Shown here in pieces: positions 23,868 through 28,549 of a stretch of DNA of 64,000 nucleotides (the first letter of the stretch is position 1; every line of letters begins with the position of its first letter). The translations under genes and the position numbers were made by a program. Source of the DNA: Actinomycetes bacterium (GTDB lineage: Bacteria; Actinomycetota; Acidimicrobiia; Acidimicrobiales; RAAP-2); contig JAJYNX010000002.1 in NCBI GenBank assembly GCA_021786095.1, positions 1-64,000 of the forward strand, written 5' to 3'. The notes under the pieces are model-generated. The model had not been told where the DNA came from. It searched no databases and was given only the letters and a program-made list of their open reading frames with translations.

Positions 23868-23986
23868 GGCGCCGCTGCCGCGTGGCGTCGTCCTCTCACG
23901 TTGCTGACCCCACCCGCCCTCGCCTCGTGTCGGTCGTCCGGGGGGTCGGCTGGTGGTGGGTGGTCGTACCCGGTAGGCTGTCCGGC

Positions 23987-24068
23987 GGGTCGGTGCCCGA
24001 GCGGCCAATGGGATCTGGCTGTAAACCAGACGGCTTTGCCTACGGGGGTTCAAATCCCTCCCGGCCCA
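23987..24068 (+). tRNA. tRNA-Tyr (anticodon GTA)
   Basis: A class II tRNA. The acceptor GGGTCGG pairs with CCGGCCC (one G-U), discriminator A. The anticodon stem TCTGG/CCAGA surrounds loop CTGTAAA (GTA), with a long variable arm and a T-loop TTCAAAT. The CCA end is not encoded. A TAGGCT -10-like box lies 7 bases before the 5' end. Confidence 0.94.
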
Positions 24069-24070
24069 CC

Positions 24071-24100
24071 GGGTCAATCTCGCCGCGGCGGGGTTGACCC
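24071..24100 (+). terminator. Hairpin after tRNA-Tyr
   Basis: GGGTCAA pairs with TTGACCC around a GC-rich inner stem (CGCCGCGGCG). It sits 2 bases after the tRNA and has no T-run. Confidence 0.6.
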
Positions 24101-24155
24101 TGCCCGCCCGGACCGCTCCGGGCTACGGTGGCAGTGGCCGGATGAGAGGAGCGTC

Positions 24156-25817
24156 GTGGCGCGACCGATGTCGTGGGGGCGGGGCGTACACCACGCCTAC
24201 CTGCGCGCGGTGTCGCGGCTGGAGGCGGGCGTGTCGCTGCTCGAGCGGCGCTACACGCCTCTGGGGCGCTTCACGCCGGGACCCTTCGAGAGCTGGTCCT
24301 TCCTCTGGCAGCCGGCGCTGCTCGGCTTCGCGGCCCTGTGCATGATCCTCGGGGGCGGCTCGTTCACCAACTCGCCCTTCAAGTTCAACGCGACCGGCAC
24401 CTGGTTCTTCGGCGAGCCCTCGTCGAACCCGGTGGGCGCGCCGAGCGAGACCAAGCTCCTCCTGTCCATCGTCCTGGTGTACGGCGGACTGGTGCTGCTC
24501 ATGCGGGTGTGGCTGCGCCTGGCCGAGGTCATGAAGCTGCACCGCGACGCGCCGCTGCGCTCGCTGTGGTGGATGCTGGTTCTCTGGAGCCTGCCAATGA
24601 TCGTCGCGCCACCGCTCTTCTCGCGCGACGTCTTCAGCTACGCGGCCCAGGGTGAGATGACGAGCCATCACCTGAACCCGTACATCCTGGGTCCCTTCTC
24701 GCTGGGCTCGAGTCCCTACCTGCGCGGCGTCGATCCGCTCTGGGGCAACGCCCCGGCCCCCTACGGCCCCTTCTTCCTCTTCCTCGACGGCTGGATCGCG
24801 CGGCTCACCGGGCACAACCAGTTGGCGACGGTGGCGATTCTGCGCCTGCTCGAGGTGGCTGGCGTGGCCATGGTGGGCTGGGGCGTGTCGCGCCTGGCGC
24901 GGGGGCTCGGGCGCGATCCGGGCGAGGCGTTCGTGCTGAGCGTGCTCAACCCCCTGGTGCTGCTCACGCTGATCGGCGGGGCGCACAACGACGCGATCAT
25001 GGCGGGCTTCCTGGTCATTGGCATCGCGCTGGCCGTGCGCCACCGCCCCGTCTGGGGTCTGTTCTTCTGCGCGTGCGCGACCGCGCTCAAGGCTCCCGCC
25101 GCCTACGGCCTGGCCTTCGTGGCCTGGACGTGGCTCGGGCCGGCGGCGTCGATACGCCAGCGACTCAAGCCGATCCTGGTCGCGAGCGCGGTGGCCGGGG
25201 CCACGCTGGGCGTGTTCACCTGGCTGGCGGGCTTCGGCTTCGGCTGGGTCGCCAACCTCCTCTCCAACGGCACGGTGCGGTCGTGGGCGGCGCCGGCGAC
25301 GGCCCTCGGGCTCGGCATCTCGGACCTGGCCCACGCGGCGGGCGCCGCGTCGCTCAATACCGCGACGGTGCTCGCGGTCACCCGGTTCCTGGGCTTCGCC
25401 GTGGCCGGCGCCTTCGCCCTGTGGCTTCTGTGGCACGCCGAGCGGCGCGGGTGGGTCCGTTCCCTGGCCGTCGCGTTGCTGCTGATGGTGGTGCTGGGGC
25501 CGGTGGTGCAGCCCTGGTACCTCGCGTGGGGCCTGGTGCTGCTCGCGGCGAGCTACCAGGGGCGCGAGCACTTCTGGTTACTGGCGTTCTCGATCACGGG
25601 TCCGTTCATCGGGCTGCCCGGCGGACGGGTGCTGCTCGATGGCCTGATCCACAGCAATCCCTTGTTGATCGCCGTGGCCATCGCCGTGCTCGGCGGTGTC
25701 CTGGTGGCCCCGATGGGCCGCTGGACGCAGTGGTCTTGGCCCGAGGCGGCGACCGTCCTGGCGAGCGATGTGTCGGACCAGTCCAGCGACGTCTCGGGCC
25801 AGCCGAGCAACGCCTGA
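24156..25817 (+). CDS. Polyprenol-phosphate-mannose-dependent mannosyltransferase, MptB-like
   Basis: This is a large polytopic membrane protein (553 aa, about a dozen hydrophobic segments) of the GT-C fold. A catalytic-type Arg-Asp pair lies in the first large loop (S-R157-D158-V-F-S-Y-A-A-Q-G), followed by N-P-Y and A-P-Y-G-P-F, a pattern shared with MptA/MptB alpha-1,6-mannosyltransferases that extend lipomannan-type glycans in actinobacteria. The start GTG has GAGAGGAG five bases upstream. It lies just after tRNA-Tyr and is convergent with the CMD gene (TGATCA across the two stops). The donor and acceptor are inferred from the family. Confidence 0.82.
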   Translation: MARPMSWGRGVHHAYLRAVSRLEAGVSLLERRYTPLGRFTPGPFESWSFLWQPALLGFAALCMILGGGSFTNSPFKFNATGTWFFGEPSSNPVGAPSETKLLLSIVLVYGGLVLLMRVWLRLAEVMKLHRDAPLRSLWWMLVLWSLPMIVAPPLFSRDVFSYAAQGEMTSHHLNPYILGPFSLGSSPYLRGVDPLWGNAPAPYGPFFLFLDGWIARLTGHNQLATVAILRLLEVAGVAMVGWGVSRLARGLGRDPGEAFVLSVLNPLVLLTLIGGAHNDAIMAGFLVIGIALAVRHRPVWGLFFCACATALKAPAAYGLAFVAWTWLGPAASIRQRLKPILVASAVAGATLGVFTWLAGFGFGWVANLLSNGTVRSWAAPATALGLGISDLAHAAGAASLNTATVLAVTRFLGFAVAGAFALWLLWHAERRGWVRSLAVALLLMVVLGPVVQPWYLAWGLVLLAASYQGREHFWLLAFSITGPFIGLPGGRVLLDGLIHSNPLLIAVAIAVLGGVLVAPMGRWTQWSWPEAATVLASDVSDQSSDVSGQPSNA

Positions 25818-26318: not shown

Positions 26319-27452
26319 CTAGAGCTCACCGACACTGAGCGCGCGGATCGTGCGCGCCACGACGGTCAGCCAGAACAGTGCCAGCAGGACGAGCAGTCCC
26401 GCTCCGGTCCACGACAGCCAGCGCAGGCTCCAGGCCTGCGCGACGGCTACCGTGGCGACCGTGTAGGCCCCCAGGGGGAAGGTGAAGCCCCACCAGCCGA
26501 TGCCGTAGGGCAGAGATCCCACGCGCAGGTAACGCAGCAGGAGCACGACGGCGATGGTGAACCACCACGCGCCGAAGCCCCACAGGATCGTGGCGGCGAT
26601 CTTCGAGCCGAGCGCCACGCTCGGCCCGGCCGGCCCCTCGAGCGCGGCGCCGACGGCGGCCAACTTCAGCAGCGCCAGGGATCCCACGCCGATCGGGCCG
26701 AGGCCGATCCACAGCGACGGGGCGAGCGCCGCGTGGGGCAGCGCGTGCAGCGCCAGGCGGTGAAAGAGCATGGTGAGGATCACCAGGTAGAGCAGGACGC
26801 CCATCCCGAAGAAGCTGTAACCGACCACGAGCAGGGAGTTCGCGGCGGTCGGCGAGGCGTAGGGGATCAGCGGTGCGATCACCAGTGGCACCACGATGTT
26901 CACCACTGGCGGGATGAACCACCCTCCGTTGACCGACTCGGGCACCATTTCGGCCCGTACGAACAGCTCGTAGGCGAACAGCACGCTGATGGCGAAGGCC
27001 AGCGGGATGCCGATCCAGTCGAGCACCGCGACCAGGGTCTGCACTGTGGAGGAGGGCCACCAGGTGGGCCCCACGGCCGCCAGCGCGGCCGCGATGACCA
27101 GGATGCCGCCGGGGAGGGTCCCGTAGAGCGCGCCCGTCGTGGGGTCGGCCAGGTCCTCGGCGCTCTCGCGCGGGTAGCGCACGAAGCGGGCCAGGTAGGT
27201 CACCAGCAGCAGGGCGCCCAGGGCCAGTGCCGCGATGGTCATGGTCTGGGCCACGACGCGAGCGCTGGTGGCGAAGGCCGGGTCGGATCCGGGGTTGGTG
27301 ATGGCGATGATCCCGATGACCGCGGTGCCCATGACGGCGCCGAACCAGCCGGGGTGGAAGCCTCGCAGGCCTCGCGGGCGCTGCCCGGGTCCCGCGCTCG
27401 GTGGTGCGGCGACGCTCTCCTCGTCCGTCACGACTACTTCGACGATGTCCAT
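26319..27452 (-). CDS. TDT-family (TehA/SLAC1-like) transporter
   Basis: This is a ten-helix membrane protein (377 aa) of the tellurite-resistance/dicarboxylate transporter family. It has F-H-P-G-W-F-G-A-V-M-G-T before helix 1 and G-W-W-G-F-T-F-P-L-G-A-Y-T in the ninth segment, both characteristic. Members export or conduct anions (tellurite, sulfite, malate, nitrate); the substrate here is open. The ATG is preceded by GAGGAG. An exact palindrome matching one upstream of the arsR-like gene lies 41 bases before the start, so the transporter is very likely controlled by that metalloregulator-type repressor. Confidence 0.88.
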   Translation of the reverse strand: MDIVEVVVTDEESVAAPPSAGPGQRPRGLRGFHPGWFGAVMGTAVIGIIAITNPGSDPAFATSARVVAQTMTIAALALGALLLVTYLARFVRYPRESAEDLADPTTGALYGTLPGGILVIAAALAAVGPTWWPSSTVQTLVAVLDWIGIPLAFAISVLFAYELFVRAEMVPESVNGGWFIPPVVNIVVPLVIAPLIPYASPTAANSLLVVGYSFFGMGVLLYLVILTMLFHRLALHALPHAALAPSLWIGLGPIGVGSLALLKLAAVGAALEGPAGPSVALGSKIAATILWGFGAWWFTIAVVLLLRYLRVGSLPYGIGWWGFTFPLGAYTVATVAVAQAWSLRWLSWTGAGLLVLLALFWLTVVARTIRALSVGEL

Positions 27453-27492
27453 ACTGCTCCTCGACTCGGCCGGGACGCCCGGCGTGACTTCA

Positions 27493-27514
27493 TACATCAA
27501 TGAGTATTGATGTA
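27493..27514. promoter_or_regulatory. Palindromic operator upstream of the TehA-like gene
   Basis: Perfect 9-bp inverted repeat TACATCAAT / ATTGATGTA separated by 4 bases. The same half-site recurs before the arsR-like gene. It resembles the AT-rich imperfect palindromes bound by ArsR/SmtB repressors and contrasts with the GC-rich surroundings. Confidence 0.75.
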
Positions 27515-27567
27515 CAGCCGTACGTGGCGCCAGGGTCAATGGTCCCGAAGGTCGAGCCGCGGATCGG

Positions 27568-27954
27568 CTACGCCGACGGCGCCGGCATGGTGGCCCCCCG
27601 CGGATGGCACGCGGGAGCGAGCCCCACCCGACGCGTGGGGTTCAGCGCGGCGTCGAGGCCCGTCCACGCCTCGCGGAGCGCGTCGTGGTCGATGGTGACG
27701 TGCACCCAGCGCCCGTCGCCGGGCTCGCGGTGCTCGTCGAGCAGGCCCGCCTGGCGCAGCCGGCGCAGGTGGTGCGACACCAGGTTTTGGGGGAGGCCCA
27801 GGGTCGCCGCGAGCTCGCAGTTGCACGCCTCGGCGTCCAGCAGGTGCAGGAAGATCCGACGCCGGGTGGCGTCGCCCAGCAGCGTGAGCAGGGCGAGTGA
27901 CGCGGCGGGCAGGTCCTCTCCCGCGCGGATCGCGTCAGGGGAGATGGCAGTCAT
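27568..27954 (-). CDS. ArsR/SmtB-family transcriptional regulator with CxC motif
   Basis: This 128-aa winged-helix repressor includes L-G-D-A-T-R-R-R-I-F-L-H-L-L-D, then A-C44-N-C46-E-L-A-A, equivalent to the ELCVCDL metal/metalloid site of ArsR-type sensors, and the recognition helix N-L-V-S-H-H-L-R-R-L-R. A third Cys (116), next to His117, lies in a C-terminal tail. The CxC pair suggests sensing of a soft metal, metalloid or a redox signal. It precedes the TDT transporter gene on the same strand with 115 bases between, and both have the same palindrome upstream, implying autoregulation plus control of the transporter. Confidence 0.88.
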   Translation of the reverse strand: MTAISPDAIRAGEDLPAASLALLTLLGDATRRRIFLHLLDAEACNCELAATLGLPQNLVSHHLRRLRQAGLLDEHREPGDGRWVHVTIDHDALREAWTGLDAALNPTRRVGLAPACHPRGATMPAPSA

Positions 27955-27981
27955 GACGGCCTCGATTCGGGTTCGACGTAC

Positions 27982-28003
27982 TACATCAACGGTAGTTGAC
28001 TCA
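27982..28003. promoter_or_regulatory. Second copy of the operator, upstream of the arsR-like gene
   Basis: TACATCAAC, 4 bases, then GTTGACTCA: one half matches the perfect site at 27493-27514 in 8 of 9 bases, the other keeps the inner five. It lies 27 bases before the arsR-like ATG and reaches into the 3' end of the GNAT gene. Confidence 0.65.
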
Positions 28004-28549
28004 CCGCGTCACCGCGTCGTGGCGCCGGTCGGGTACGACGTACTGGAACTCCACGACGTCGAGCCACCGGCCGTGCTTGCGACCGACCTCGATCTCCGTT
28101 CCCACGAGGGTGTATCCGCACTTCTCGTGGAGGTGGATCGACCCCTCGTTGTCGGCGACGATGCGCGCGATGAGCGAGTGGAAGCCCGACTCGCGAGCGG
28201 TGGCGATCAGCTCGCGCAGGAGGCGTTCGCCGACGCCGCGACCCCGCGCCGCGCGGTGGACGTAGACCGAGTTCTCGACCGTGGTGGCGTAGGCGGGGCG
28301 GCTGCGGAAGGGTGAGACCAGGGCGAAGCCCAGGATCAGCTCGGCGCGCGCCCCGCGCGACCCCACGTCGTCGTCGTCGTTGACCGCGACCAGACAGGGG
28401 TAGGTGGTGCGGTGGTCGCGGATCCACGACTCCTGCTCGGCCAGGGTCCGCGGTACCAGGTCGAAGCTCACCGAGGTCTCGATCACCTCGGGGTTGTAGA
28501 TCTCCATGAGGGCCGACGCGTCCCCGAGCTCAACCAGGCGCGTCCTCAT
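28001..28549 (-). CDS. GNAT acetyltransferase, phosphinothricin N-acetyltransferase-like
   Basis: This protein (182 aa) resembles the Pat/Bar branch of GNAT enzymes: I-Y-N-P-E-V near residue 17, S-F-D-L-V-P-R-T, S-R-P-A-Y-A-T-T-V-E-N-S-V-Y-V, the acetyl-CoA loop R-G-R-G-V-G-E-R-L-L, N-E-G-S-I-H-L-H-E-K-C-G-Y and R-K-H-G-R-W-L-D-V-V. Family members acetylate methionine sulfoximine, phosphinothricin or related amino acids. The substrate here cannot be told. An acidic D-D-D-D insertion follows the first third. Its 3' end reaches the arsR operator. Confidence 0.85.
   Translation of the reverse strand: MRTRLVELGDASALMEIYNPEVIETSVSFDLVPRTLAEQESWIRDHRTTYPCLVAVNDDDDVGSRGARAELILGFALVSPFRSRPAYATTVENSVYVHRAARGRGVGERLLRELIATARESGFHSLIARIVADNEGSIHLHEKCGYTLVGTEIEVGRKHGRWLDVVEFQYVVPDRRHDAVTR

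Follow-up and report, generated by a model that had tools for sequence, protein, structure and literature searches.

An inserted arsR-TDT-CMD cassette with an ArsR-type operator and a DosR-type box ahead of its transporter gene in an actinobacterial genome

The 64-kb stretch of DNA analysed here (64,000 nucleotides, hereafter the window) carries an ArsR-family repressor gene, a TDT/SLAC1-family transporter gene and a CMD/AhpD-like gene, which, judged from gene order, are one cassette inserted between core genes that are adjacent in relatives. On balance we favour a reading in which ArsR would repress the cassette until released by a metalloid, a DosR-type regulator would activate it, and the transporter would move an arsenic-related anion. 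The arrangement is a variation on the ars theme. The earlier note on this DNA, which paired the regulator with the transporter through a shared palindromic operator and suggested an oxyanion or metalloid efflux circuit, was right in direction and incomplete; it named regulator and transporter alone, and the CMD gene also belongs to the cassette. The gene families, the sites, their conservation in three genomes, the insertion, the linkage to arsenic genes and the promoter spacing are all established from sequence.

Gene content and insertion of the cassette

The features of the region, in window coordinates, are as follows.

23901..25817, plus strand: MptB-like mannosyltransferase ORF, one core flank, outside the cassette
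26201-25818, minus strand: CMD/AhpD-like protein, 127 aa, final gene of the cassette
27452-26319, minus strand: TDT/SLAC1-family membrane protein, 377 aa, ATG at 27452 with AGGAG ahead
27493..27514, no strand: putative operator O1, perfect palindrome TACATCAAT-N4-ATTGATGTA with an ATCAA-N6-TTGAT core, between arsR and the TDT gene
27503..27508, minus strand: candidate -10 hexamer AATACT, predicted, inside O1
27530..27546, minus strand: DosR/DevR-type box GGGACCATTGACCCTGG, starting 32 nt before O1
27954-27568, minus strand: ArsR/SmtB-family repressor, 128 aa, with CxC (C44/C46) and a conserved C116
27982..28003, no strand: operator-like O2, imperfect copy ahead of arsR, 6/9 arm pairs
28001..28549, minus strand: GNAT acetyltransferase, the core neighbour outside the cassette, with an ArsN1-like score below cut-off

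The gene order GNAT-ArsR-TDT-CMD is the same in all three genomes compared, and in the window arsR, TDT and CMD fill exactly the gap between the GNAT and MptB genes. At 28 of 29 other GNAT loci (the best-scoring ones, all of the same genus; L118 has no MptB match) an MptB-like gene lies beyond GNAT, mostly within about 150 bp as measured by alignment ends, and none of the 29 has ArsR, TDT or CMD between the two. The acetyltransferase is present in 52 of 61 genomes, its own included; because it is this widespread and flanks MptB without the cassette in relatives, it is a neighbour rather than a part of the cassette. It falls short of the ArsN1 model (128.9 bits, cut-off 210), and a role as arsinothricin-resistance partner was rejected on that score, on its wide occurrence and on its place outside the insertion. 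In many loci of the same genus this PAT/ArsN1-like acetyltransferase (28001-28549) is found near secE-nusG.

The TDT protein passes PF03595 (SLAC1/TDT) over its full length (230.5 bits against a cut-off of 27.9, E 4e-68), lies under the NCBIfam TDT cut-off (TIGR00816; 196.5 vs 237.25) and fails the TehA equivalog PRK10764 (28 vs 342). No solved structure was found to be similar to it by sequence, and its predicted structure is poor (mean pLDDT 47). Plasmid records yielded 111 TDT proteins, all below 60% identity, and no close ArsR homologue (6 records, the best 47% over half of the query); the neighbourhoods viewed were those of two of the 111 TDT records and of one ArsR record. Outside the window the same genome has another TDT gene, a distant one that belongs to the non-arsenic group (G000:C29:118300-119364). 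The CMD protein scores 31.1 bits against PF02627 (cut-off 23) and has no match in NCBIfam. By eye, it has one Cys at the place of the AhpD motif, which is CxxC.

The repressor has a clear HTH_5 domain (E 3e-13; 49.7 bits, cut-off 22) and passes the NCBIfam metalloregulator model NF033788 (70.7 bits, cut-off 55); its match to the CmtR model, at 36.9 bits, is far under the cut-off of 150, and the BigR model is absent from its matches. A close orthologue was present in one of 99 other genomes in the first search of relatives (G049, 80% identity), and three genomes are comparable for orthologues: the window, L033 and L032. C44, C46 and C116 are invariant in all three. The ACNCEL metal site named in the earlier note is correct and corresponds to C44/C46. 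The C-terminal Cys-His that it also named stands in the window as C116-H117, and across the orthologues only the Cys is conserved, the pair reading CH in one and CR in two. In the predicted ArsR structure, of low confidence (mean pLDDT 58), CxC falls at a helix start; for both ArsR and TDT the predictions were given no weight past topology. The position of CxC, where the recognition-helix region starts, points to an As(III)-type ArsR, with C116 perhaps as a predicted third ligand.

The putative operator and its imperfect copy

O1 reads TACATCAAT-GAGT-ATTGATGTA, so that the perfect 9-bp palindrome with a 4-base spacer reported ahead of the transporter gene is indeed found at 27493-27514. It also stands out in the GC-rich DNA (69% GC in the window) as had been described: seven of its nine arm bases are A/T, against 0-4 in the other perfect 9-bp repeats, and it is the sole AT-rich perfect 9-bp inverted repeat (spacer 0-10 nt) in the 64 kb. 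The window has a single match to O1 even at three or fewer mismatches, and none of 100 dinucleotide shuffles has one; these shuffles, together with its uniqueness among the AT-rich inverted repeats, rule out a chance palindrome. A search of the genome (2.1 Mb) for further copies found the core ATCAAN6TTGAT once, at O1, and no match to the reversed control pattern.

An ATCAA-N6-TTGAT core near a promoter marks ArsR operators, and O1 carries it exactly. The available text of PMC9137774 gives this ArsR core, and that of PMC4585019 describes it as a footprinted Synechocystis site. The arm pairs of O1 are kept in both other genomes with an orthologue (9/9 in the window, 9/9 in L033 and 7/9 in L032, or 8/9 in the last if the spacer is 6), so the palindrome is not the unconserved one that would have told against the earlier proposal. 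FNR half-sites are TTGAT-N4-ATCAA; their order is opposite to that of O1, and an FNR site was rejected for this reason.

The second site had been described as an imperfect copy before the regulator gene. Such a copy is present in the window as TACATCAAC-GGTA-GTTGACTCA, with six of nine arm pairs, and only a single arm is kept in the other two genomes: L033 and L032 both read TGATGCAAC-TACG-GTTGATGTA, with 5/9 pairs each. Across the three genomes (6, 5 and 5 pairs) the GTTGATGTA arm is thus invariant and the other varies. O2 has no exact match to the ATCAA-N6-TTGAT core, and it shares bases with the stop codon of the acetyltransferase gene that precedes arsR, so that coding may add constraint to it.

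The wider 22-bp frame of O1, TAN-ATNNA-N6-TNNAT-NTA, was found 18 times in the 755 kb of sequence retrieved; 16 of these matches lie no more than 300 bp ahead of an ArsR or clade-TDT domain, a zone that makes up 3.5% of that sequence. Without the source loci the count is 8 of 10, and with three already-seen sites dropped as well it is 5 of 7; redundant loci were removed beforehand here and in the box-pair counts below. Frame matches lie at the ArsR-arsenate-reductase-type fusions of L004 and L027 (identified by eye) and in the ArsR/acr3 intergenic regions of L110 and L171, and none lies at the host's own acr3 locus. The best DosR-type box score is 9-11 of 15 at 11 ArsR-side sites outside the window, compared with 12-15 at TDT promoters, which argues against the 22-mer being part of a DosR-type promoter alone. 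An operator ahead of the transporter gene, as first proposed, gains from these results: O1 has the ArsR core, is conserved, and has its 22-bp frame before other ArsR genes.

The DosR-type box and the TDT promoter

DosR boxes lie near -42.5 of their promoters. The window box GGGACCATTGACCCTGG agrees with GGGACTTNNGNCCCT at 10 of 12 specified positions, and that of L098 at all 12; GGGACTTNNGNCCCT is the stringent DosR consensus in the accessible part of PMC6448022, and OsdR sites such as CGGGACCTTCGGCCCT are given in that of PMC5069765. Of the 17 clade loci scanned, 10 have a box like GGGACCTTCGACCCTAG ahead of the TDT gene; it is followed by a 22-bp element, TACATY-N10-GATGTA in form, whose distance from the start of the box is 31 nt, or 32 nt in the orthologous trio. 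The place of the candidate -10 reads TAnnnT in seven promoters outside the trio, and if this is the -10, the centre of the box would be at about -42.5.

In 752 kb, the strict pairing of box and element at 31-32 bp occurs at clade TDT promoters only, with motif scores derived from the very promoters scanned; the scan was kept strict, loose thresholds yielding many random pairs. Its extra pairs are one in L102 with a spacing of 17 and a second one in L111 with a spacing of 23. The earlier note does not name the DosR-type box, whose place before the operator implies that arsenic may not be the sole input.

When up to one mismatch is allowed, GGGACNWTNGNCCCTR is matched 24 times in the window's own genome (one place being counted twice, on both strands) and its reversed control five times, which suggests a hypoxia-type regulon in this organism. 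Pfam assigns six box-downstream products, chosen by eye, as a nitroreductase, a cytochrome bd subunit I, a P-type ATPase, two phosphoribosyltransferases and an isocitrate dehydrogenase; several other boxes precede unrelated genes or fall inside genes. In the same genome DosR-type boxes are seen ahead of genes in L145, L150, L159, L163 and L167.

The TDT clade and its arsenic-gene linkage

With a profile built from five TDT sequences (threshold E 1e-60), the clade of the window protein was found in 3 genomes out of 396 for the phylum, 9 out of 395 for the class and 11 out of 99 for the genus; each count includes its own genome. The clade set comprises all 18 loci from these searches, including L098 and L114, which are 99.99% identical over 10.8 kb. 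In the tree the clade, together with a Chlorohelix plasmid protein, is supported at 96/93, with long branches flagged, L102 and Chlorohelix among them.

Of the 18 clade-TDT loci, 13 have an ArsR gene no more than about 3.1 kb away, compared with none of 18 other TDT loci of the same order (Fisher 7e-6, or 3e-5 with near-duplicates merged), the latter being 18 of 22 non-clade matches, some near contig ends, and the excluded four having 1.5-kb flanks. A second, independently constructed ArsR profile gave the same linkage, the first having drawn in part on clade loci. Two of the excluded loci, L053 and L054, have weak ArsR-profile matches (E 1.5e-4 and 2e-5), which are larger winged-helix regulators of another kind and, by eye, lack CxC in the region. 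These regulators beside non-clade TDT genes (L053:2498-3361, L054:2418-3299) show, again by eye, HxCPF near the C-terminus. Among the five clade loci without ArsR, the contigs of L060, L086 and L097 stop just downstream, and L096 and L102 have full context with no ArsR within about 4.6-5.6 kb. No annotated ArsR lies within 5 kb of the Chlorohelix member (L080).

Genes of the Acr3, ArsC, ArsP or ArsA type are near 7 of 18 clade loci and none of the 18 others, and CMD adjoins TDT at 8 clade loci and at none of the others (18 loci each; Fisher 0.003). Curated cut-offs are passed by Acr3 and ArsD in L098 (ArsA-ArsD-ArsR-ArsR-Acr3 and CMD-TDT) and by ArsP_1 and an ArsE-type thioredoxin in L101, where the order is ArsR-TDT-ArsP-ArsE. 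L100 has ArsR and TDT with an Acr3-like protein (125 bits, below the NCBIfam cut-off and above that of Pfam). L087 has ArsR-TDT with ArsC-type and ArsR-ArsC-type proteins; its ArsC-like proteins are under the NCBIfam cut-offs and over those of Pfam, and its fusion of ArsR to an LMW-phosphatase/ArsC-type domain is over the Pfam cut-offs. The ArsC profile held part of an Acr3 frame, so that its Acr3 matches are artefacts; ArsC beside Acr3 was confirmed in G647, G840 and G000.

Taking one linked ArsR per locus, CxC stands in the same column in 12 of 12, and those outside the trio have 26-36% identity to the trio ArsR; so uniform a motif at such identity suggests that the pairing arose several times and was not inherited once. 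CxC is absent from the second ArsR of L098 and from the L087 fusion. In L061, L098/L114, L110 and L111 ArsR lies 1-3 kb off and mostly faces acr3, so that part of the linkage could reflect shared genomic islands, and some clade members have UspA or P-type ATPase genes as neighbours in place of ars genes. The metalloid link first read into the pairing is nonetheless supported by this comparison of arsR-transporter neighbourhoods, with ArsR near 13 of 18 clade loci as against 0 of 18.

Several neighbouring genes deserve mention in their own right. Small membrane proteins without a Pfam match, similar to each other by eye, adjoin the clade TDT in L098 (3814-4488) and L111 (4533-5096) and are possibly a further partner. 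L098:630-1364 encodes an ArsD-AhpD-type fusion (NCBIfam ArsD 116 bits, ahpD_dom 29.3 bits, both over cut-off). ArsR is fused to an arsenate-reductase-type phosphatase domain in L004:1489-2217, L027:1435-2289 and L087:4270-5238 (Pfam-checked in L087). Upstream of TDT in G020 there is an apparent IS30-like transposase remnant, recognized by eye (L060:1580-1999).

Proposed mechanism and alternative readings

An ArsR dimer on O1 would cover the presumed -10 of the TDT gene and repress its promoter, and the dimer would probably also bind O2 and so shut down its own promoter; we consider repression by ArsR likely. Its release would come from a trivalent metalloid, As(III) or Sb(III) most likely, on CxC, perhaps with C116, and we consider a metalloid the probable inducer. 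That a DosR-type response regulator activates the TDT promoter from the upstream box is plausible, and we incline towards it. Under such dual control full TDT expression would need arsenic together with low oxygen or a similar stress. The TDT protein would serve as an anion channel or exporter, for an arsenical anion or for another anion needed in arsenic stress, with CMD as an accessory thiol/redox protein. Arsenite is mostly uncharged in the cell and an odd cargo for an anion channel, which makes an anionic arsenical or a companion anion likelier than arsenite itself; an arsenical as the TDT substrate may be put forward tentatively, at somewhat less than even confidence.

The host has its own arsR, arsD, arsA, acr3 and arsC together on another contig, without the palindrome (L194, G000:C66:1-10000). 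With this complete ars locus the cassette is an addition, and the main defence lies elsewhere. Acr3 is found in all ten clade-bearing genomes tested. The same ten gave 14 ArsB-family matches (19-34 bits, 12 over the Pfam cut-off); these are assumed to be other transporters of the same superfamily.

The regulation could be as described and the TDT protein still carry a non-arsenic anion (sulfite, a C4-dicarboxylate, nitrite or formate) in a hypoxia or sulfur response, with ArsR sensing reactive sulfur species or merely borrowing the promoter. The DosR-type box and the UspA and P-type ATPase neighbours fit this, as do the molybdopterin oxidoreductase and cytochrome c genes beside a distant Deinococcus TDT, the TusA and rhodanese genes within 5 kb of the Chlorohelix member and a TauE/SafE gene near L087. 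However, all 12 linked ArsRs have CxC in the As/Cd/Pb position, 7 of 18 loci have arsenic-type genes nearby, and the BigR matches that would suggest sulfur sensing reach only 39.5 bits (L101 ArsR) and 31.9 bits (L087 fusion) for a cut-off of 155; we regard such a cargo as unlikely, while giving it real weight.

The two remaining alternatives concern what the 22-bp element and its repressor are. The fixed spacing of 31-32 bp from the box, the TAnnnT in the middle and the presence of the element at L060 and L086, where ArsR is not seen, would suit an element that is mainly the -10 region of a DosR-type core promoter and no ArsR site. This is improbable, as the frame is also found at ArsR/acr3 and ArsR-ArsC-type promoters with weak boxes (9-11/15), the contigs of L060 and L086 stop right after TDT or CMD and may have cut off an ArsR gene, and the window element is perfect and holds the ArsR core. 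ArsR might instead sense a divalent metal (Cd, Pb or Zn), the association of TDT with arsenic genes then being coincidental; CxC is found in CadC-type sensors too, the CmtR model does match the window ArsR, albeit at 36.9 bits for a cut-off of 150, and P-type ATPases stand beside TDT at L096, L098 and L100 (by eye; by Pfam for L098). Against this, several of the linked efflux and reduction genes are of arsenic type and the six window proteins scanned include no metal pump, and a divalent metal as the signal seems improbable as well.

Relation to known systems and significance

The metalloid-responsive cassette that we prefer shares with canonical ars operons (arsR with acr3 or arsB, and arsC) a CxC ArsR, an ATCAA-N6-TTGAT operator and a regulated membrane transporter, and differs in that its transporter is of the SLAC1/TDT family. 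An arsR-arsP-thioredoxin (ArsE-type) cluster encloses the clade TDT of L101, whereas the window cassette has neither ArsP nor thioredoxin. With the DosR/DevR and OsdR hypoxia regulons it would share a GGGACTTNNGNCCCT-like box before the gene, but its promoter adds an ArsR-type operator. PF03595 over the full length is common to TehA/SLAC1/TDT proteins; from TehA the cassette TDT is far removed, under the NCBIfam TDT cut-off and in a separate clade.

Among 717 transporters from 685 ars operons, a 2015 survey leaves 8 unclassified and, in its accessible text, does not name TDT/SLAC1 (PMC4435449); the consulted sections of a 2018 survey of ars distribution do not mention TDT, SLAC or TehA (PMC6205960). 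TehA is counted in some Frankia genomes, according to an extract of PMC4531530. The open literature, with few subscription journals, yielded no description of a TDT, TehA or SLAC1 protein paired with ArsR or arsenic, and partial literature listings none of a DosR-type box and an ArsR-type operator in one promoter. The linkage of this TDT clade to arsenic genes appears to be new, as does the fixed spacing of box and 22-bp element at its promoters.

To our knowledge, a substrate has been assigned to few of the bacterial SLAC1/TDT proteins. More speculatively, and less likely than not, the clade might represent a new type of transporter for arsenic detoxification, present in this actinobacterial order and its relatives and joined time and again to different CxC ArsRs. 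It would then be driven from a two-input promoter that combines a hypoxia-type activator with arsenic-triggered release of ArsR, and would export an anionic arsenical (thiolated, methylated or pentavalent, for example) formed at low oxygen. A TDT clade tied to arsenic gives a testable substrate and would enlarge the ars repertoire by one transporter family. The fixed layout of box and operator over the presumed -10 would tie arsenic defence to oxygen status, which is where arsenic chemistry changes.
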